From: an uncultured Cellulomonadaceae bacterium
Lineage (GTDB): Bacteria > Actinomycetota > Actinomycetes > Actinomycetales > Microbacteriaceae
Assembly (NCBI GenBank): GCA_913063365.1
Contig: CAJXYC010000002.1
Span: 1 to 35,715, forward strand
DNA length: 35,715 nt
Reading direction: 5' to 3'
The notes below the pieces were generated by a model. It saw only the letters and a list, made by a program, of their open reading frames with translations, made no database searches and had not been told where the DNA came from. Below are positions 6,599-31,789 of the stretch, one piece after another; position 1 is the stretch's first letter, and each line of letters opens with the position of its first letter. The translations under genes were made by a program, and so were the position numbers.

Positions 6599-8497
6599 GT
6601 GGCGTCATCTCGTGAGACCAATTCCCCCAAACGTTCTGGGGGTATCGGCGGTGTGTTCAAACGTCTTGTCGGTCGCGGTTCCGACGCCCCAGCCTCAACC
6701 AGCCCACCCCAATCGAAGGATTCCTCCACCTCCGTGACCACGAAGACACCAACGAAGAAGCCCGCGGCCAGTAAGCCAACCACGAAGACTGCAGCGGCGA
6801 AAAAGCCTGCGGCAAAAACCACAGCCGCCAAAAAAGCGGCTGCCAAGACCACGGCAGCGAAGAAGCCCGCGGCGAAGTCCGCTCCGGCCAAGGCCACTGC
6901 GGCGAAGAAACCTGCGGCGAAGAAGCCTGTCGCAAAGACCACTGCTGCGAAGAAGCCCGCTACGAAGAAGCCCGCGGCCAAGACGACGACGGCGAAGAAG
7001 CCGGCTGCGAAAAAACCTGCGGCAAAGACCACTGCTGGGAAGAAACCGGCAGCAAAGAAACCTGCGGCCAAGAAGCCCGCGGCCAAGAAGCCTGTGGCGA
7101 AGACCGCGACGGCGAAGAAACCGGCCGCCAAGAAGCCTGCGGCAAAGACCACGACGGTGAAAAAGCCTGCCGCTAGGAAGCCCGCGGCGAAGTCCGCTCC
7201 GGCCAAGGCCACGGCGGCGAAGAAACCTGCGGCGAAGAAGCCGGCATCGAAGAAGCCCGCCGCCAAGACGGCTCCTGCAGCATCGAAGGCTTCCCCAGCG
7301 AAGGCGAGGAAAGAAGAAGAGGCCGCCGCTGTTGACGAGGAAGAGCCAGACGTTGAAGTCACTGAGGCGGATTCATCGGACGGCGGTGACAGTGTTGACG
7401 CCGACTCTGACGACGACGAGGTGGCTCCGGGCGAGGAACTTGACCCCCGCCAGGTTGAAGCCCTGGGTGCAGCGATGCTCCAGCAAGCTGCCGGTGGAGG
7501 AGAGGCTCTGCCCGCGGGAGCCATCGTCATCAAGTCCACCGATGAGGAAGACGTACCGGTCGTGTCGACGACCATTACCGGCGCCACTGCTGACCCAGTC
7601 AAGGACTACCTGAAGCAGATCGGAAAAGTTGCTCTGCTGAACGCCGAGCAGGAGGTGTCGCTGGCCTGGCGGATCGAAGCCGGTCTGTTTGCTGAAGAAA
7701 AGCTCTCCACCCTGACTCAGCGAGAGAAGACCACGAAGCTCGCCCGAGAACTTCACGAAATCGCAAAAGACGGCCAGCGCGCGAAGAACCACCTCCTGGG
7801 TGCAAACCTCCGTCTAGTGGTCTCCCTGGCCAAGCGCTACACCGGACGCGGAATGCAGTTCCTGGACCTCATCCAAGAGGGCAACTTGGGGTTGATTCGT
7901 GCCGTCGAAAAGTTCGACTACACCAAAGGCTTCAAGTTCTCGACCTACGCCACCTGGTGGATTCGCCAGGCAATTACCCGGGCGATGGCTGACCAGGCGC
8001 GAACAATTCGTATTCCGGTTCACATGGTCGAAGTCATCAACAAATTGGCCCGAGTGCAGCGGCAGATGTTGCAAGACCTTGGCCGAGAACCCACTCCCGA
8101 GGAGCTTGCTCGCGAACTGGATATGACTCCCGAAAAGGTCGTCGAAGTCCAGAAATACGGGCGCGAGCCGATTTCCCTCCACACGCCGCTCGGCGAAGAT
8201 GGCGACAGTGAGTTCGGTGACCTTATCGAGGACACTGAGGCAGTCGTCCCTGCCGATGCCGTGGGCTTTACGATGCTGCAACGCCAGCTCGAATCGCTTC
8301 TCGATTCGTTGTCTGAGCGTGAGGCGGGTGTAATCCGAATGCGTTTTGGCCTGGGAGATGGCCTGCCAAAGACTCTTGACCAGATTGGTGACACCTTCGG
8401 TGTCACTCGGGAGCGGATTCGACAAATAGAGTCCAAGACCATGGCGAAGTTGCGCCACCCCTCCCGGTCGCAGGCTCTGCGCGACTACCTCGAGTAA
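6599..8497 (+). CDS. sigA: Primary RNA polymerase sigma factor (RpoD/SigA/HrdB) with long Lys/Ala/Pro-rich N-terminal extension
   Basis: Regions 1.2-4: [115 protein letters not shown] start at 6599. Confidence 0.97.
6745..7280 (+). repeat. Intragenic low-complexity KKPAAK / [11 protein letters not shown]-type coding repeat in sigA
   Basis: Tandem degenerate units (aag-cct-gcg-gcg-aag). A 66-bp near-identical segment occurs at 6862-6927 and 7177-7242 with one visible mismatch. Confidence 0.9.
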
Positions 8498-8504
8498 GCC
8501 AGCC

Positions 8505-9776
8505 ATGCGCTACCGGCTTGCCCTCGCCGTTGGTCGGTTGATCCGCCGGCTGGCCCGGGCACGAGGTGGTGGCTCGGCGTTTCCGGGTCTCGTCGCCCTG
8601 CGCATCGATCCGCTCTTTTTGGAGCACTCGATTGGGCAGCTTCCTGGGGGAGTGATGTTCGTGACCGGCTCCAACGGGAAATCGACGACGACGTCGATGA
8701 TCGCCGCGATTCTGCGAGAGCACGGGAAAAAAGTGTTCACGAATCCAGCGGGGAGCAATCTTCCGCAGGGTCTTGCCTCAGCGGTGTTGGCCGATGCCGA
8801 CCGGCAGGGACGACTCCCTGCAGACCTGGCTGTGCTAGAGGTCGATGAGGCGTATGGTCCTCAGATTGCACGACACATCCCACCCGCTCATTTAGTGGTG
8901 ACCAATTTGCAGTTGGATCAACTCAATCGATTTGGCGAGCCGGAGCGGGTGTGGCAGATGATGAGGGACGTTGCCGAGCGCACGTCGGCGACCTTGCTCG
9001 TCAACCAACGAGAACCAGCACTCGTTGCCCTAGGCGAGGGACTCGAGGTTCGAGTCGACACGGTGGATGTTGCACAGTCGCTGGTGGATCAGTCCGGGGA
9101 TTCGCTTGGCGCGGCAGAGCTATTCGACGAGCGCTCCACCGCCACCGCCAGCGGGGCGCCACTTGTCACTCTGGAATCCCGGGGAACACGCAGCGCCATC
9201 GTCTCGGATGATTCGTCTCGCCACGAGATTTCCCTGCCGGACGAGGGCCTCCACTGGGCAATTGATGCGACCGTTGCTCTTGGAGCATCTCGGATTCTCC
9301 TCGGCGAGCAATGGTCGTGGGATGCGGCAGTACAGGCGTTTGCGTCCTTGCCCGTGGTCTACGGCCGCGGCGAGACAGTCCAGTGGAAGGGCGTCGATAT
9401 CACCCTGTTGATGCAGAAAAACCTTCCGAGCATGAGAGCAAACCTCTCCACTGTGAAGACCCAGCCGGAGAGAGTCTGGGTGGCCGTTGACGAGGGAACT
9501 CCTGATCCCTCGTGGATCTTTGACCTGGATTTGGGGCCACTAAAGAGAATCGACGTGCTCTCAGGCACCAAGGCCCATCAGTGGGCCATGTTCTTGGCCT
9601 ACCGAGGGGTCGCAGTGGGAGCAGTCATTGACGACACTGCTCAGGCCATGGATTACTTCTCTCAGGCAGGCACTGCCCCAGTCACAGCCATCGTCAACTA
9701 CGAGCAAATGATGGCGGTAAGACGGCTGGCGGGACGGAAAGACCTGGAGGCCCGGGTGGAAAGTGGGACGTCGTGA
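8505..9776 (+). CDS. MurT-like Mur ligase family protein (DUF1727 C-terminal domain), cysteine-free variant
   Basis: P-loop VTGSNGKSTTTSMIAAIL, VLEVDEAYGPQI, TNLQLDQLNRFGE, C-terminal PDPSWIFDLDL. Translationally coupled to a GatD-like gene. No Cys in 423 aa. Confidence 0.85.
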   Translation: MRYRLALAVGRLIRRLARARGGGSAFPGLVALRIDPLFLEHSIGQLPGGVMFVTGSNGKSTTTSMIAAILREHGKKVFTNPAGSNLPQGLASAVLADADRQGRLPADLAVLEVDEAYGPQIARHIPPAHLVVTNLQLDQLNRFGEPERVWQMMRDVAERTSATLLVNQREPALVALGEGLEVRVDTVDVAQSLVDQSGDSLGAAELFDERSTATASGAPLVTLESRGTRSAIVSDDSSRHEISLPDEGLHWAIDATVALGASRILLGEQWSWDAAVQAFASLPVVYGRGETVQWKGVDITLLMQKNLPSMRANLSTVKTQPERVWVAVDEGTPDPSWIFDLDLGPLKRIDVLSGTKAHQWAMFLAYRGVAVGAVIDDTAQAMDYFSQAGTAPVTAIVNYEQMMAVRRLAGRKDLEARVESGTS

Positions 9777-10471
9777 CAACGCTCCGCATTGTGCGGCTAC
9801 TGCCGGACCTGCTCTCGATTAACGGGTCTCTGGGGAATGCAGAAATCCTCCAGGCTCGGGCCTCGTGGTGGGGCTGGAAGGTGACGGTCAAAGACGTCAC
9901 TGAGGGAGCCACATTCCCCACCTCTGCCGACATTGTTGTGATCGGCCATGGCACGTCCTCGGCGACAACCCGGGCGCTCGCCGCGCTCCACGCTTGGTCT
10001 CCGCACATCCGCTCGGTACACGACAAAGGAGCCGCGATTCTCGGCCTGGGGCTGGGCGGCGACCTTCTGGGCCAGTCCGTTGAGCTGCGTGACGAGAAGC
10101 TCGAGGGTCTCGGAATGACCCCACTCGATGCCGTGTTGCAGCACCATCACGTCTCCACCGAAGTGTGGGGCGTGGATAGCGAGGGCCGTGAAAGCGCTGG
10201 TTATCTGAATGACCTCACCCAGAGGCCGGCTAGTCCCACACCGCTTCTTACCCTTAGCTCTCCACCTTCGGTCTCCGGCGGTGAGGGTCACCACACCAAT
10301 CGGATCTGGGTGTCGGCGGTATCGGGACCACTGCTTGGCCTAAACCCCCATATCGCTGACGACATTCTCCGCTCCCGCGATTCGCTCCCGGAGCCAACCG
10401 AGCGGCATGCGGTGGCAGATGCTGCGGCTGCCAAGGCCAGGCAGGCTATTGCCGGGAGGCTTGGGGTTTAG
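9773..10471 (+). CDS. GatD-like (CobB/CobQ-type class I amidotransferase fold) protein, predicted catalytically inactive glutaminase
   Basis: Overlaps MurT-like stop by 4 bp. LRIVRLLPDLLSINGSLGNAEILQARASWWGW resembles GatD N-terminus; nucleophile-elbow region reads ILGLGLGGDLLG; C-terminal VSAVSGPLLGLNPHIAD aligns with YLHGPLLPKNPxLAD. No Cys in the protein. Confidence 0.8.
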   Translation: MTTLRIVRLLPDLLSINGSLGNAEILQARASWWGWKVTVKDVTEGATFPTSADIVVIGHGTSSATTRALAALHAWSPHIRSVHDKGAAILGLGLGGDLLGQSVELRDEKLEGLGMTPLDAVLQHHHVSTEVWGVDSEGRESAGYLNDLTQRPASPTPLLTLSSPPSVSGGEGHHTNRIWVSAVSGPLLGLNPHIADDILRSRDSLPEPTERHAVADAAAAKARQAIAGRLGV

Positions 10472-11508
10472 TCAGCCCACGTCCGCGGGATGTTCGCGCT
10501 CAAGTGGACGAGAACTTCGTCACCGATGGTTCCGCACCAGGTGGCCCACTGTTCCACCGGGACGCCTCCTCGGCCCAGCACGCAGACGCTATCCCCGGGG
10601 GAGATGGATACTCCAGTCGGCCGTTCGATCACCATGTGATCCACCTCGACCCGTTTGACCGGACAGATGTTGCCAGACACCGACAGAGCCGCCTCCGCCA
10701 CGATCGGAGCGAGGAGTCCGTGACCAGAGCCCACGGCCAAGGTGACCGTATCTCCATCAACGCTCATGACAGGCGCATGGAGCTGGAGGACTGGGTGAAA
10801 GCCGAGGTCTTCAGCACTTCTGTTCGAGAGAGGGCTGACACCGTAGGCAAGAATTCCTAAACGCACCATGTCCAACCTGGCCTCCGGTGCATCCACCAGG
10901 GCGTGAGAGGCGGCCAAATGAAGCTGGTCAGGAGTGAGACCCGCTTCTCTCGCAGCGGTAGCGGCCTGCTGTAGCCGCTGGAGTGCCACGCGGGTGCTCT
11001 CTTCAGAGGTATCCGACAGGTGCGACCAGACGGCATGGACACGAAGTCTTCCTTGGCCTTCTAGCTCTGCAGCCTGGGTCACGAGTGCTGGCCACTGTTC
11101 CGCAGTGGCGCCATTTCGGTTAAGTCCGGTGTCCACTTTGAGGTGAACGATGGCGGGAGAGCTGGATGCGTGCCGGGCAATGTCAGCCAGCTGGCCGTCT
11201 GTCGAGACGCCCAAGTGAACCCCAGCGTTGACGGCCTCGGTGTAGTCCTGTCCCGGGGCAAAAAGCCAGGCCAGCAGCGGAGTATCGGGAGCGAGAGTTC
11301 TCGCTAAGACGGCTGTGTGGAGGTCCAGCACGGCCAGTGCGTCCACTTCTTCAGCGATTGCCGCGGGGGTGATCAGGTCCATTCCGTGGCCGTAAGCGTT
11401 TGATTTGACCGCCAGCATGAGGTCAGTGTCTGGCCCGCAGAGCTGGCGCGCCCTCTCGATGTTCTGCGAGAAGGCCTGCCTCGACAGTGTGATGGAGGGG
11501 CCTGTCAT
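10468..11508 (-). CDS. Alanine racemase-like fold-III PLP protein (atypical active site)
   Basis: N-terminal PLP-Lys motif LAVKSNAYGHG, HLKVDTGLNRNG, VWSHLSD, MVRLGILAYGVSP. ATG 11508 overlaps the upstream stop (ATGA). C-terminal motifs divergent. Confidence 0.85.
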   Translation of the reverse strand: MTGPSITLSRQAFSQNIERARQLCGPDTDLMLAVKSNAYGHGMDLITPAAIAEEVDALAVLDLHTAVLARTLAPDTPLLAWLFAPGQDYTEAVNAGVHLGVSTDGQLADIARHASSSPAIVHLKVDTGLNRNGATAEQWPALVTQAAELEGQGRLRVHAVWSHLSDTSEESTRVALQRLQQAATAAREAGLTPDQLHLAASHALVDAPEARLDMVRLGILAYGVSPLSNRSAEDLGFHPVLQLHAPVMSVDGDTVTLAVGSGHGLLAPIVAEAALSVSGNICPVKRVEVDHMVIERPTGVSISPGDSVCVLGRGGVPVEQWATWCGTIGDEVLVHLSANIPRTWAD

Positions 11509-12158
11509 TTGTTGTTTCCCATCCGCACCACGCGCGGACCAATTCCGGCACCGAGCAGCGTCACCGGGCGTCCAGACCACTCCGCCCATTCGTCAATCGA
11601 GACCGACCCGCCCCAGATCGTCACCTCATCGCCAATCGCAGGGGTGTGGGATCCGGCGTCGAGAATGAGTTGATCCATGGCAATGCGACCGGCGATGGGC
11701 AGGCGAATGCCCTGCCAGTCGACTTCCCCTCCCACGGGATCAAGCCTCGGCACGCCGTCAGCAAACCCGATCGCAACCAACGCCAGTGTGGTGCCAGTCT
11801 CGGTGCGATAAAGCCCTCCGTAGGACACGTCCTCGCCGGCAGGCACCGATTTCACATTCACCACCCGAGCCGACAGAACCTGTCCTCCCGCGCGGTGTGC
11901 ATCGACAACCCATTCGTCAGACCCGGAGTCCACGGCTGTCAGCCCCTTAATGCTCACCCCGTCGTCGAGACGGGCGTGTGAGAAACCAAGTGTGGCGGCA
12001 ATGGCACCTACTTTTTCAACGCCAAACCCGTATGCGTCTGCGCGCAGATCGAGTGGAGCGTCGTTGCCTCGGTCGGCAATGAGGCTCAGTGCCCGCTCAA
12101 GGGCAGAGGCTGGGTGTTCCACCCAGCGAAGGAGCTCTTTAGCTTGCGTCTGCGACAT
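11505..12158 (-). CDS. Alanine racemase C-terminal-domain protein (truncated racemase paralog)
   Basis: APLDLRADAYGFGVEKVGAIAATLG followed directly by a C-terminal domain: DVSYGGLYRTETGTTLALVAIGFADGVPRLDP..IAGRIAMDQLILD..IGDEVTIWG. Start chosen at ATG 12158 (MSQTQAKELL); the ORF-track extension to 12314 overlaps the DUF7455 gene. Confidence 0.8.
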   Translation of the reverse strand: MSQTQAKELLRWVEHPASALERALSLIADRGNDAPLDLRADAYGFGVEKVGAIAATLGFSHARLDDGVSIKGLTAVDSGSDEWVVDAHRAGGQVLSARVVNVKSVPAGEDVSYGGLYRTETGTTLALVAIGFADGVPRLDPVGGEVDWQGIRLPIAGRIAMDQLILDAGSHTPAIGDEVTIWGGSVSIDEWAEWSGRPVTLLGAGIGPRVVRMGNNK

Positions 12159-12372: not shown

Positions 12373-12557
12373 ACGTGCATCCCTTCTCGAACGGTTATGA
12401 CATTCCACCACGCCCACACCGTCTTTTCCTGCAAGGAGGGTCCTGTTTCGCCCTACGCGTAGTTTTCCCCGAGTTCTGTGTGGCGCAGGTTCAGGCAGAC
12501 ATGGGTTGTCTATTCTCAGGTGTGGCTCACACGCGAGCTTTATGGGGGAAGGTGTCT

Positions 12558-14633
12558 GTGGCAGCGGATTCGTATTCAGCCAGGCACCTCTCGGTGTTGG
12601 AGGGCTTAGAAGCCGTTCGCAAACGCCCCGGAATGTATATCGGTTCGACCGACACCAGAGGGCTCATGCACTGCGTGTGGGAAATCATCGATAACGCCGT
12701 CGACGAAGCCATTGGGGGCTTTGGCGACGCCATCGACGTGGTGATCAGGACCGATGGCAGTGTGGAAATCATCGACCGCGGTAGGGGAGTGCCCGTCGAT
12801 GTGGAGCCCCGGACGGGACTAACAGGTGTCGAGCTCGTGTTCACCAAGCTCCACGCGGGGGGCAAATTCGGTAGCGACTCGTATCAGTCAAGCGGTGGGT
12901 TACACGGTGTCGGCGCGTCTGTCGTGAACGCATTAGCCTCCCGAGTCGATGTCGAAGTTGATCGCGACGGCGCCACCTGGGCCATGTCGTTTCGTCGCGG
13001 CGAACCCGGGGTGTTTAAAGACCCCGCAGACCCTGCTCCAGACGCCGAGTTTTCTCCCTTTGTGGACGGCAGCGAGCTGAAAAAAGTCGGGAAGGTCGCG
13101 AAGAAAACGACCGGCACCAGGGTGCGGTTCTGGCCAGATCCTCAAGTGTTTGGCGATGCCACCCTGTCTTCTGCCGACCTGTTGGATCGCGCGCGTCAGA
13201 CCGCGTTTCTGGTGCCCGGTCTCACGCTCACGATTCGCGACACTCGCGAGACTCCAGAGACCAGCGAATCCTTCCGTTACGACGGCGGGGCAACCGAGTT
13301 TGCCGAATACCTCGCACCAGACCCCGCGGTGGTCGGACCGTGGCGACTAAGCGGCAGTGGAACGTTTACCGAAACAGTGCCCGTGCTGCACGATGACGGG
13401 CATTTGGAGCCGGCTGAGGTCGAGCGGGAGATGGCTGTCGACGTCGTGGTCCAGTGGGGGACTGGATACGACACCGTGGTGAAGAGCTTCGTCAACATCA
13501 TTCAAACCCCCAAAGGCGGCTCACACCTCCAAGGTTTTGACCAGGCCCTGATGAAAACTCTCCGCGCAGAGGTGGAGAAGAATGCCAGGCGCCTCAAAGT
13601 CGGCAACGACAAGTTGGAAAAAGACGATGTCCTGGCCGGATTAACAGCTGTGGTGGCTGTCCGTGTTCCGGAGCCGCAATTCGAGGGCCAGACAAAGGAA
13701 GTGTTGGGGACCCCTGCGGCAAAAAGCATTGTCCAGGCCGTGGTGTCCGAAGGGCTTCGGGCCCGACTCCAGTCAGGGAAGCGAGACGATAAGGCGCAAT
13801 CGGCGATGCTGCTGGAAAAAATCGTCGCGGAGATGAAAACGCGGGTGTCTGCGCGGGCATTGAAAGAAACCCAACGTCGCAAGACAGCGCTCGAGAACTC
13901 CACTTTGCCGACCAAGTTGGTGGATTGTCGCAGCAAGGGAGTCGACGACACGGAGTTGTTCATTGTGGAGGGTGATTCGGCGCTTGGCACCGCGAAACTT
14001 GCGCGCGATTCGGAACACCAGGCCCTATTGCCCATCCGGGGAAAGATTCTGAACACCCAAAAGGCCAGCCTCCAGGACATGTTGAACAACCAAGAGTGCG
14101 CCGCGATCATTCAGGTGATTGGCGCGGGGTCTGGTCGCACTTTTGATCTGGAGCAGGCGCGCTACGGAAAAGTCATCATTATGAGCGACGCCGACGTCGA
14201 TGGTGCCCATATCCGGACGTTGCTGCTCACGTTGTTCTTCCGTTACATGCGGCCCCTGGTGGAGGAAGGGCGAGTGTTCGCCGCGGTCCCACCACTGCAT
14301 CGAATTGTGGTCAAACACCGTGGGAGTACCCCCAACGACGTCATCTACACCTACTCGGAAGCGGAGTTGAACGCCGTGATGGCTGACCTGGAGAAAAAAG
14401 GCTTGTCCTACGAAGACCCAATCCAGCGCTACAAGGGCCTTGGGGAGATGGACGCCGACCAGCTGGCAGAGACGACGATGTCGCCTGCCAAACGGATGCT
14501 CCGGCGGGTTCGAATGGCCGATGCCGAAGCGGCAACGGCGATGTTCGAGTTACTGATGGGCAATGAGGTCCAGCCGAGGCGAGAGTTCATTCAAGAACGT
14601 CCCTACGTCGACACCTCACGAATCGACGTTTAG
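12558..14633 (+). CDS. parE: Type IIA topoisomerase B subunit (topoisomerase IV ParE / GyrB-like)
   Basis: GLEAVRKRPGMYIGSTDTRGLMHCVWEIIDNAVDEA, GGLHGVGASVVNALA, ELFIVEGDSALGTAK, IMSDADVDGAHIRTLLLT. GTG start 12558 chosen from the upstream GGGGGAAGG. Confidence 0.93.
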   Translation: MAADSYSARHLSVLEGLEAVRKRPGMYIGSTDTRGLMHCVWEIIDNAVDEAIGGFGDAIDVVIRTDGSVEIIDRGRGVPVDVEPRTGLTGVELVFTKLHAGGKFGSDSYQSSGGLHGVGASVVNALASRVDVEVDRDGATWAMSFRRGEPGVFKDPADPAPDAEFSPFVDGSELKKVGKVAKKTTGTRVRFWPDPQVFGDATLSSADLLDRARQTAFLVPGLTLTIRDTRETPETSESFRYDGGATEFAEYLAPDPAVVGPWRLSGSGTFTETVPVLHDDGHLEPAEVEREMAVDVVVQWGTGYDTVVKSFVNIIQTPKGGSHLQGFDQALMKTLRAEVEKNARRLKVGNDKLEKDDVLAGLTAVVAVRVPEPQFEGQTKEVLGTPAAKSIVQAVVSEGLRARLQSGKRDDKAQSAMLLEKIVAEMKTRVSARALKETQRRKTALENSTLPTKLVDCRSKGVDDTELFIVEGDSALGTAKLARDSEHQALLPIRGKILNTQKASLQDMLNNQECAAIIQVIGAGSGRTFDLEQARYGKVIIMSDADVDGAHIRTLLLTLFFRYMRPLVEEGRVFAAVPPLHRIVVKHRGSTPNDVIYTYSEAELNAVMADLEKKGLSYEDPIQRYKGLGEMDADQLAETTMSPAKRMLRRVRMADAEAATAMFELLMGNEVQPRREFIQERPYVDTSRIDV

Positions 14634-17089: not shown

Positions 17090-18217
17090 ATGGCGACCAT
17101 GTTACCGGCGAGCTCCCGGCCTCCACGGAGCCTTGCCGATACGGGGGAAAACCTCATTTCGCAGGTCACCGACCCGTCTCCCGGAGCCGCTCGCAAAGTG
17201 GCGGTGGTGGTGATTGACGGGCTTGGCAGCCAGCAATTAGTCGCGCATTCTGGACACGCTCGGTTTTTGCATCGGCGCTTTCAGGACTCCGGGGAAGAAA
17301 GGTATTCGGGTCTGCCGTCAACCACGGCGAGTGCGTTGGTGAGTATTACGACCGGAGCGACCCCAGGTCAGCACGGTCTTCTTGGCTACCAAGTCCGCGA
17401 CCCGGAATCAGGGCACCTTGTTAATCACTTGAAGCCGTTTCCCGCTGGTGTGACCGCGTCAACCTGGCAGCCGGTGCCCACCGTGTTTGAACAGGCCACC
17501 GAGCGGGGCATTCCGGCCCGAGCATTGTGTGAGGAACGGTTCCGAGGAACAGACTTCACCGAAGCCACTCTGCGAGGTGCTGATCTGCGGGGTGTCGGGA
17601 AGCTCCCTGAGCACCTGCACCAGCTTCGGTCTTTTTTTGACGAGGTCGACGCGGGCTTTGCCTATGTGTATTGGCCTGCTGTCGACAGGATGGGACACCA
17701 ACACGGCGTCGATAGTGATCAGTGGCGGGATGCGGTGGAAGCTGTGGATGCGTTTTGTGCGGAACTGGCGGGGGTGTTGACGCCGGGCGAAGCCGTCACG
17801 GTCACTGCCGACCACGGAATGCTGGATGTGGCAGACGCCGAGCGATTTGTGTTCTCCGCGTCTCACCCGCTCCGCGCAGATGTGGCTCTGTGGGCCGGAG
17901 AGCCCAGATGCGTCCACCTCTACCTCCACGAGGGCGTCGAGTCCGGCCGATGGGCGGAAATGTTCCAGGAGACTCTCGGCCATGGTTTCCGGGTGCGGAC
18001 ACGAACACAGTTGCTGGGGGCGGGAGTTTTCGGGGCTGTCTTGCCGGAAAACGAGCCCCGAATCGGTGATGTGGTGGCGTTCGCGGAGGGGCGGTCGTCG
18101 CTCTATGACGAACAGACGGCCTCTAGCTCATCGCTCGCGATGCGAGGGCAGCATGGGTCATTTAGCGATGCGGAAATCAGAGTCCCGCATATCCCGCTTA
18201 ACGACGGGGGTTCTTAA
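17090..18217 (+). CDS. Alkaline phosphatase family / type I phosphodiesterase-nucleotide pyrophosphatase-like protein
   Basis: VAVVVIDGLGSQQL, GLPSTTASALVSITTGATPGQHGLLGY, YWPAVDRMGHQHGVDS, VTVTADHGMLDV metal-site motifs. ATG at 17099 is an alternative start. Confidence 0.88.
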   Translation: MATMLPASSRPPRSLADTGENLISQVTDPSPGAARKVAVVVIDGLGSQQLVAHSGHARFLHRRFQDSGEERYSGLPSTTASALVSITTGATPGQHGLLGYQVRDPESGHLVNHLKPFPAGVTASTWQPVPTVFEQATERGIPARALCEERFRGTDFTEATLRGADLRGVGKLPEHLHQLRSFFDEVDAGFAYVYWPAVDRMGHQHGVDSDQWRDAVEAVDAFCAELAGVLTPGEAVTVTADHGMLDVADAERFVFSASHPLRADVALWAGEPRCVHLYLHEGVESGRWAEMFQETLGHGFRVRTRTQLLGAGVFGAVLPENEPRIGDVVAFAEGRSSLYDEQTASSSSLAMRGQHGSFSDAEIRVPHIPLNDGGS

Positions 18218-19257
18218 GCCGGGTCGCTGTCGTCGTCTGGCTTTGCGCCAAACACGATGTCGTCCCAGCTCGGCATCTCCGGGCGACCTTTGCGGGGGGC
18301 GGGCTTTTCGTCGGCAGACTCTTCTTCCTGCGGTGGTATCTCTCCAGTGCCAGGGAACTGGTGAACTTCAGCGCCTGCGTCCTCGTCCGAGTCGTCCTGA
18401 ACGAGACGAATGCTTCCCGTGGAGGGGTGTCTACTCTTGACGTCCTCTGCTTCTGAGCTCGGAGCTGGTTCTCGCTCGCCACGTCGACGACGAAGCGCTT
18501 CCAGTAAATCTGCTGTTTCGTTGCTGGTGTCACCGGTGGTGGGAGCAGCAGGGTCTGGTCCCGTCTTTCCATACGGAACGGGCTCTGTTAGTGGGCCCGT
18601 ATCGGATAGGGGCATCTCGTCGAACATCTCCGAATCAAACCGCTCGCCCGCGGGGTTCTCATCAGTCGCGACGACGGGACGAAGGCGGGGAATCAGCGGC
18701 CCTTGGATGGGCTCGGACTGGCTGAGGGCCGTGGCGTCATCGTTTTGGGGGACAAGGATTTGTTTTCTGGGGTCAAAACTCCAGACAGCTTTGTGTTCCA
18801 CCTCGTTGCTGTCGGCGAAAGCAGCCTCGACAAACCACCCAGACTCTTCTTTCCACGCTGACCAGGTGGCCGCCCCTGCTCCAATGTCATTTAACCGGGC
18901 GCGAACAGATTCACCGAAGCTGGTGTGCCCGTCGCGGTCAGATCCGTGGGCAAACTGAATGGCTTGAGCCTGTTGGGCAATAAATTCGCGCTCGGCAATA
19001 ACGGGGCCTTCGAACATTGCGACGTAATCGACTGTTTCCCCGGTGAGGTCAGCGACCTGCTGAGCGGTAAGACCGCGGCGGATATGGGCTTGGATATCTT
19101 TCGGGGCGACTCGTTTGGGGCCTGCCGCCGTCGCTCCGACCGGTCTGCGGACCGCATCGGTAAGCGTCTGATCAATCGGAAGGTGGAAGCGCTCTCCGGT
19201 GTCAGTCATGACCACTAACTTGTCGTCGTCACGACCCACTACCTGCAGAGTGCGCAT
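18214..19257 (-). CDS. sepH: Septation protein SepH (DUF3071)
   Basis: MRTLQVVGRDDDKLVVMTDTGERFHLPI and HIRRGLTAQQVADLTGETVDYVAMFEGPVIAEREFIAQQAQ; acidic, low-complexity C-terminus. Confidence 0.9.
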   Translation of the reverse strand: MRTLQVVGRDDDKLVVMTDTGERFHLPIDQTLTDAVRRPVGATAAGPKRVAPKDIQAHIRRGLTAQQVADLTGETVDYVAMFEGPVIAEREFIAQQAQAIQFAHGSDRDGHTSFGESVRARLNDIGAGAATWSAWKEESGWFVEAAFADSNEVEHKAVWSFDPRKQILVPQNDDATALSQSEPIQGPLIPRLRPVVATDENPAGERFDSEMFDEMPLSDTGPLTEPVPYGKTGPDPAAPTTGDTSNETADLLEALRRRRGEREPAPSSEAEDVKSRHPSTGSIRLVQDDSDEDAGAEVHQFPGTGEIPPQEEESADEKPAPRKGRPEMPSWDDIVFGAKPDDDSDPA

Positions 19258-30742: not shown

Positions 30743-31789
30743 ATGTCCCCTTCCGCCGGTTCTCCCGGCTTGCTGAGCCTGCTCGACAGGCGGCCCGAGA
30801 TGACCGCGGCAGATCTTCTGGAGCACTTCACGCCGCCCGCGCAGTTTGCCGAAGCCACTCTTGACAACTACGTCCCGGACTCCAACTACCCCTCCCAAGC
30901 AGAGGCGCTTGACATTGTTCGCTCCTTTGCTGTGGGGGGAACGTTCCGTAGGTCGAAGAAGTCACTTTTTGGCGGCAAGAAAGTCGACTCCACTGACCGT
31001 CCCGGGATCTACCTGGATGGTGGTTTCGGTGTGGGAAAGACCCACTTGCTGGCCGCGCTGTGGCATCAGACGCCTGGCCGGACGTATTACGGAACCTTTA
31101 TCGAATACACCGCCCTGGTCGGCGCCCTCGGCTACAAGGGAGCGGTCGACCACCTAAAGGGCGCCGATTTTCTGGCAATCGATGAATTCGAGTTGGATGA
31201 TCCAGGCGACACCATGGTCATGTCGCGCCTCCTGGGAGAACTGGTGGCAACCGGCACGCGGTTAGCCGCAACGTCTAACACACCGCCAAATGCTCTTGGC
31301 GAGGGTCGCTTCGCCGCCGAGGACTTTTTGCGGGAAATCACTGCACTCTCAGACAAGTTTCGGACTGTTCGTATCGAAGGTGAGGACTACCGCCGTCGGG
31401 ACTTCGACGGGCACGCGGTCAGTTTTTCCCCCGCGGAACTGGAGTCACTGACGACGGGAGTCACGGGCTCGGTAGCGCGGGATTCGTTTAGTGCCGTGAT
31501 TGACCATCTCCGCGAGGTTCATCCGAGCAGGTTCTTTGGCTTGGTCAAAGACCTGGACATGGTGATCTGGGATGACGTGCGAGTCCTGCACGATCAGGCC
31601 CAGGCGTTGCGTTTGGTTGCTCTCGTCGACCGTTTATATGACCAGCAGGTGGCCATCGCATCAAGTGGCGCCCCCCTTGACGAGGTGTTTGACGAGACCA
31701 TGCTGGCCGGTGGATATCGGAAGAAATATCTCCGGGCAACCTCCAGGCTGATTGCTTTGTCCAGGCTTGTCGAGAACCCAGGGCACTGA
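30743..31789 (+). CDS. zapE: AFG1/ZapE-family ATPase
   Basis: GIYLDGGFGVGKTHLLAALWH (Walker A), ADFLAIDEFELDDPGDTMVMSRLL (Walker B), ATSNTPPNALGEGRF. Confidence 0.92.
   Translation: MSPSAGSPGLLSLLDRRPEMTAADLLEHFTPPAQFAEATLDNYVPDSNYPSQAEALDIVRSFAVGGTFRRSKKSLFGGKKVDSTDRPGIYLDGGFGVGKTHLLAALWHQTPGRTYYGTFIEYTALVGALGYKGAVDHLKGADFLAIDEFELDDPGDTMVMSRLLGELVATGTRLAATSNTPPNALGEGRFAAEDFLREITALSDKFRTVRIEGEDYRRRDFDGHAVSFSPAELESLTTGVTGSVARDSFSAVIDHLREVHPSRFFGLVKDLDMVIWDDVRVLHDQAQALRLVALVDRLYDQQVAIASSGAPLDEVFDETMLAGGYRKKYLRATSRLIALSRLVENPGH

Follow-up and report, generated by a model that had tools for sequence, protein, structure and literature searches.

A MurT-like ligase with a nucleophile-less GatD partner as a candidate for building the group-B peptidoglycan bridge in Microbacteriaceae

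We analyzed a 35,715-nt stretch of DNA (hereafter, the window), contig C2 of a tiny marine actinobacterium of the family Microbacteriaceae whose genome of 1.37 Mb is 84% complete and which belongs to the same genus as Pontimonas salivibrio CL-TW6 (genome G030 in our numbering). Beside sigA, the window encodes a MurT-like ligase and a GatD homolog that has lost its catalytic residues (pseudo-GatD). We propose, with a probability of about 70%, that these two proteins constitute an amino-acid ligase that acts on the alpha-carboxyl of the D-Glu at position 2 of the peptidoglycan stem (D-Glu2) and builds the group-B cross-bridge. With somewhat less assurance, we favor a wider scenario in which group-B walls arose, at least twice, as MurT lost its ammonia supply and turned into an amino-acid ligase, three non-equivalent modules were exchanged at one locus, and a heterodimeric racemase often adjoins them. 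A literature search found no described enzyme that bonds the D-Glu alpha-carboxyl to the group-B bridge.

The MurT-like ligase and its GatD partner

The ligase (8505..9776, + strand) contains a Mur_ligase_M domain (E 2e-11) and a MurT_C match (E 4.5e-4) that scores 20.6 bits, under the 25-bit cut-off. Its ATP-site residues are retained, namely the P-loop GSNGKSTTT with K59, E112/E115, N134, D138 and R288, and both features of the nucleotide-site test, the P-loop Lys and the Mg-binding Glu, are thus present. D334 aligns with D349 of Staphylococcus aureus MurT and does not vary among the 20 sigA-site rows aligned. The acceptor-side segments are unlike those of the live types, with NYEQMM in place of CTYTAML and a shortened DEGTPDPSW in place of a longer loop containing ADGRD; such divergence is expected if the acceptor has changed. 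The lack of a zinc ribbon in the ligase does not set dead pairs apart: the Micrococcaceae-type MurT that works with a live GatD has no ribbon either.

The pseudo-GatD (9773..10471, + strand; GATase_3 E 1.2e-6) has the GatD fold without the catalytic Cys and His. In its nucleophile motif, LGLGLGGDLLG, a Gly stands in place of S. aureus Cys94, and in VSAVSGP a Ser stands in place of His189. In S. aureus, the GatD substitution C94G or C94S alone abolishes amidation by GatD/MurT (PMC6113224). The AlphaFold model of the window protein has a mean predicted local distance difference test score (pLDDT) of 90.9, and in a comparison of this model with the PDB all six GatD entries of that database take the top six places (Z 25-27), well clear of other amidotransferases. 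Because the predicted fold is confident and its best PDB matches are GatD entries, pseudo-GatD is, as far as the model can tell, a retained pseudoenzyme and not a wreck.

The pair resembles the MurT/GatD lipid II isoglutaminyl synthase of S. aureus, S. pneumoniae and Mycobacterium in its adjacent, overlapping genes, its folds, its ATP-site residues and the aspartate aligned with D349. It differs from that enzyme in the GatD residues and the acceptor-side loop described above, and the NCBIfam equivalog cut-offs are missed by far (99 against 800 bits; 19-32 against 400-450 bits). With the Mur ligases MurC-F it shares the Mur_ligase_M domain and, as proposed here, an acyl-phosphate chemistry that couples a stem carboxyl with an amino acid; unlike theirs, its C-terminal domain is of the MurT type and GatD is its partner, and it would build a side branch instead of the stem.

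In the proposed mechanism, the MurT-like protein with its pseudo-GatD would use the ATP site, which is kept at the sequence level, to activate the D-Glu2 alpha-carboxyl of a peptidoglycan precursor as an acyl phosphate. Judging from its residues, pseudo-GatD would be unable to release ammonia from glutamine, and the acceptor would be an amino acid of the bridge, for example a diamino acid or glycine, through its amino group. The product would be a branch that is later joined by the D-Ala of a neighboring stem, which gives the group-B cross-bridge, and pseudo-GatD may have been kept as a structural or scaffold subunit or as an acceptor-binding one.

Nucleophile loss and group-B walls

To follow the catalytic residues across the family, we used a sample of 150 Microbacteriaceae genomes, in which 80 loci in addition to the window were read for GatD; the catalytic positions were read in about 74 loci, from the roughly 107 genomes that are not of the Cys-type only. 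The nucleophile Cys was found in 0 of 69 sigA-linked GatD copies, the window included, where its position is occupied by G (42 copies), A (10), H (7), S (3), T (2) or N (1), or is deleted (4). All seven copies of the other, Cys-type GatD of the family have the Cys, and every Microbacteriaceae copy with both Cys and His lies away from sigA. Dead GatD also occurs away from sigA, at three loci (L077, L098 and L107).

Comparison links this loss to group-B walls. The chemically typed strain Rhodoluna lacicola MWH-Ta8, in which a B2beta peptidoglycan with D-Ala and D-diaminobutyric acid (D-Dab) was measured (PMC4156110), has at sigA a MurT with a GatD in which a deletion has removed the nucleophile segment. 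The site holds nothing but this pair, and no CofE-like gene, the substitute described below, was found in its genome (G010). For Pontimonas, the genome paper took the cross-links to be direct and noted no enzymes for a bridge.

The Cys is mostly kept outside the family. In a contig scan covering Arthrobacter, Kocuria, Bifidobacterium, Actinomyces, Corynebacterium, Mycobacterium, Rhodococcus, Clostridium and other genera, 43 of the 48 GatD copies among the matches listed have the Cys, 42 of them together with the His. The Cys is also present in 29/29 copies from other families of the order and in 20/20 from Micrococcaceae, two samples that share a few genomes. The five exceptions in the scan are one actinobacterial metagenome-assembled genome (MAG; L126), which places within the sigA-site MurT clade, and four Clostridia MAGs. 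The sequence-only reading of the window had named A-type species sharing the GatD substitutions as one observation that would speak against it, and wherever this could be tested none appeared.

One of the Cys-less Clostridia MAGs carries the label Eubacteriaceae, and since group-B walls are known from this family, we examined it next. It yielded 22 loci with a dead GatD beside MurT (typically VTGTSIALWG and FTNTLGP) and, as a set apart from these, 8 loci with a Cys+His GatD. The dead set includes Eubacterium limosum ATCC 8486 and very likely, though not certainly, Acetobacterium woodii, which we take to be group B; the Cys+His set we suspect to be Pseudoramibacter, presumably of type A1gamma. 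In a review, B2alpha is given among the types of Eubacterium (PMC11382707). Erysipelothrix with Holdemania forms a third group-B lineage, of type B1delta. Micrococcus luteus, for its part, bears Gly on D-Glu. As observations in their own right, at four Clostridia MAG loci (L153, L154, L156 and L159) a zinc-ribbon MurT is paired with a further type of dead GatD (ANGSSGAALA or AIGGSGSLLA), and one genome (G265) has a live MurT/GatD pair besides a dead one. Three loci titled Candidatus Saccharibacteria (L118, L125 and L128) hold a Micrococcales-type MurT/GatD, and their MAGs are possibly mislabelled or contaminated.

In the MurT tree, the dead pairs fall into two groups, and the branch that separates them has Cys-type sequences on both of its sides. 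The main clade of sigA-site sequences (support 100/100) stands beside Cys-type Micrococcales sequences, and a zinc-ribbon clade (100/97) brings together the remaining sigA-site Microbacteriaceae, two copies from off the site, and the Eubacteriaceae and Clostridia with a dead GatD. If the Cys is ancestral, it was lost at least two times. The zinc-ribbon dead type is thus common to two group-B lineages, and yet in Microbacteriaceae it occupies the same locus as the other type. Altogether, these patterns suggest that in two or more separate branches of MurT the GatD partner has lost its nucleophile in step with group-B lineages; the A-type genera sampled show no such loss.

Module exchange at the sigA-parE site and alternative explanations

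Genomes that lack MurT/GatD often have, in the same gap between sigA and parE, a CofE-like ligase (PF01996), mostly accompanied by an ATP-grasp protein (PF14397) and often by the same alanine-racemase-like pair that adjoins the window module. The site thus accommodates three modules: the Micrococcales-type MurT/pseudo-GatD, the zinc-ribbon MurT/pseudo-GatD that is shared with Eubacteriaceae and Clostridia, and the CofE-like ligase, usually with ATP-grasp. We counted 65 loci with MurT/GatD, 11 with the CofE-like ligase and none with both; genome-wide, MurT/GatD is present in 121/150 and the CofE-like ligase in 21/150 Microbacteriaceae, again never together. Since seven genera (g7, g9, g13, g57, g58, g76 and g84) contain both states, the exchange appears to have recurred. 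CofE-like genes of a more distant kind are found alongside MurT/GatD in G053, G123 and G147. At L077 of G053, and also in G123, a diverged CofE-like gene lies next to a zinc-ribbon MurT/GatD that is dead and not at sigA.

CofE, the F420-0:gamma-glutamyl ligase, joins an amino acid to a carboxylate, and its known acceptor is an amino acid and not ammonia, which favors amino-acid ligation over amidation at this site. Although the CofE family supplies the alternative module, the MurT-like ligase is of unrelated fold; the CofE-like copies pass the Pfam F420_ligase cut-off of 25 with 50-56 bits, and a copy stays under the NCBIfam CofE equivalog cut-off (34.8 against 180.65 bits). The exchange suggests that MurT/pseudo-GatD and the CofE-like protein are interchangeable ligases with one function, and in some relatives the latter, usually with ATP-grasp, would do the same job at the same site. 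One exchanged locus (L278 of G084) contains, at 1170-2915, a gene for a MurJ-type lipid II flippase together with a CofE-like and two ATP-grasp genes. The ATP-grasp protein, weakly like alpha-L-glutamate ligases, is a repeated neighbor at L044, L053, L061, L102, L103 and most CofE loci, and it may add a second bridge residue.

Several observations weigh against the proposed ligase. A Clavibacter muropeptide paper includes amidated D-Glu among its listed modifications. The His is still present in 42 of the 69 dead sigA-linked copies, 14 of the 150 genomes have only a Cys-type GatD, and 8 have neither MurT/GatD nor the CofE-like module; in the genomes of these two kinds that were examined, the sigA-parE gap is empty, except for an unrelated insertion in G049. 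Aurantimicrobium minutum has neither a dead pair nor a substitute ligase, and if species like it are group B, a further ligase must exist. The probability of about 2e-19 for zero overlap between MurT/GatD and CofE, calculated as if the two were independent, is uncorrected for kinship. Lastly, the wall type is known for few genomes, and the match rests on family-level knowledge with a few typed strains. The idea, already put forward from the sequence, that MurT joins a bridge amino acid to D-Glu gains strong comparative support from the group-B tracking, from R. lacicola and from the CofE replacement, and is left with gaps of the A. minutum kind. Absence of the set from B-type species had also been named as evidence against this idea, and some family members do lack both the dead pair and a substitute.

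Among the alternatives, the complex could join an amino acid or an amide to some other envelope carboxyl, at another stem position or on a wall glycopolymer. The substrate cannot be read from the sequence, and the C-terminal acceptor region is unlike that of canonical MurT, which would suit such a role. Nevertheless, the only known substrate carboxyl of MurT is the alpha-carboxyl of D-Glu2, the very one used in group B, and the distribution follows group B where the wall type is known; we consider this alternative unlikely. We also find it improbable that the complex is still an amidotransferase, in which MurT would use free ammonium to make D-isoglutamine, the chemistry of GatD being lost and the product unchanged. 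Ammonium-driven synthesis is known for other amidotransferases, the MurT residues including the one aligned with D349 are retained, and the amidated D-Glu of Clavibacter would be accounted for. However, continued amidation does not explain why the loss tracks group B twice and is absent from A-type genera, nor the replacement by a CofE-like ligase with an amino acid as its known acceptor, and the bridge takes up that very carboxyl in group-B walls. A pseudo-complex in decay, or one with a regulatory role alone, at which the lost GatD residues might hint, is scarcely credible given the open frames, the synteny and the MurT catalytic residues kept across about 100 genomes and the confident structure model of pseudo-GatD.

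The split racemase pair and the surrounding genes

Downstream of the amino-acid ligase candidate, on the opposite strand, lie two alanine-racemase-like genes, alrN (10468..11508, - strand; coupled ATG at 11508, alternative start 11589) and alrC (11505..12158, - strand). AlrN has the pyridoxal 5'-phosphate (PLP)-binding Lys in AVKSNAYGHG and lacks the catalytic Tyr motif; AlrC has a shortened barrel, an Arg in place of the Lys (DLRADAYGFG) and the catalytic Tyr in VSYGG. The same complementarity was found throughout the 30 pairs compared: AlrN has the Lys in 30/30 and the Tyr in 0/30, and AlrC has the Tyr in 30/30 and the Lys in 0/30 (Arg in 20). Whole Alr chains match the AlrC model over 207-208 residues (Z up to 19.8), and on this model AlrC is a shortened but whole-length Alr fold. 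The domains and catalytic residues are those of the alanine racemases (Alr, DadX and VanT), here divided over two chains: in every pair the Lys and the Tyr are on different proteins, whereas each chain of the known homodimeric Alr has both. Because Alr active sites combine the Lys of one subunit with the Tyr of the other, an AlrC/AlrN heterodimer would hold exactly one working site, composed of the Lys of AlrN and the Tyr of AlrC. The pair almost certainly is such a split-active-site heterodimer, and it probably works as a racemase that can serve cell walls at large. Our literature search found no description of a heterodimeric alanine racemase.

It is about as likely as not that the pair is an ordinary alanine racemase that turned into a heterodimer, has no link with the bridge and is merely a frequent neighbor. 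The best PDB sequence matches of the pair are alanine racemases. In a 927,303-bp genome (G015), presumably Tropheryma whipplei Twist, the split pair (L050; G015:C1:588500-600000) seems to be the sole Alr-type racemase, and R. lacicola has D-Dab with only a whole Alr and no split pair; both genomes fit an ordinary role. On the other hand, P. salivibrio has a whole Alr besides the split pair, the window genome has an Alr-type N-domain cut by a contig end, and the pair stays beside both ligase modules. The earlier suggestion that the pair makes the bridge D-diamino acid finds no support in R. lacicola and G015, and as a general supplier of D-Dab it was dropped because of R. lacicola. Nor is it supported that the four genes form one obligate cassette, as the pair is present at only 21/65 MurT/GatD loci and 7/11 CofE loci.

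The module is flanked on the left by the open reading frame of sigA, the principal sigma factor (6599..8497, + strand), which marks the exchange site, and on the right by a conserved parE-type topoisomerase subunit gene (12375..14633, + strand), whose true start is probably further inside. sigA adjoins the module at 69 GatD loci and in 28/28 genomes searched with sigA. The sequence-only reading placed four cell-wall-like genes with lost active-site residues between sigA and parE, and all four are found there; their arrangement is beyond chance, since the order recurs family-wide with the same residues lost and kept. The overlaps, GTGA at murT/gatD and ATGA at alrC/alrN, suggest two gene pairs with coupled translation. 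Elsewhere in the window, the SigA N-terminus (6599-7350) is a long Lys/Ala/Pro repeat stretch with KKPAAKK units, and genes for the septation protein SepH and a ZapE-like cell-division protein lie at 18214-19257 and 30743-31789.

Group-B walls have served as a chemotaxonomic marker for decades, and the present analysis names a candidate enzyme, widely conserved, for the bond between D-Glu and the bridge. R. lacicola is a typed bearer of it, and a second lineage of independent standing (Eubacterium/Acetobacterium) and a ligase that replaces it in nature offer further handles. The analysis also adds a putative racemase whose two catalytic residues are divided between two proteins. If the proposal is true, these bacteria would illustrate a route from an amidotransferase to a cross-bridge ligase.

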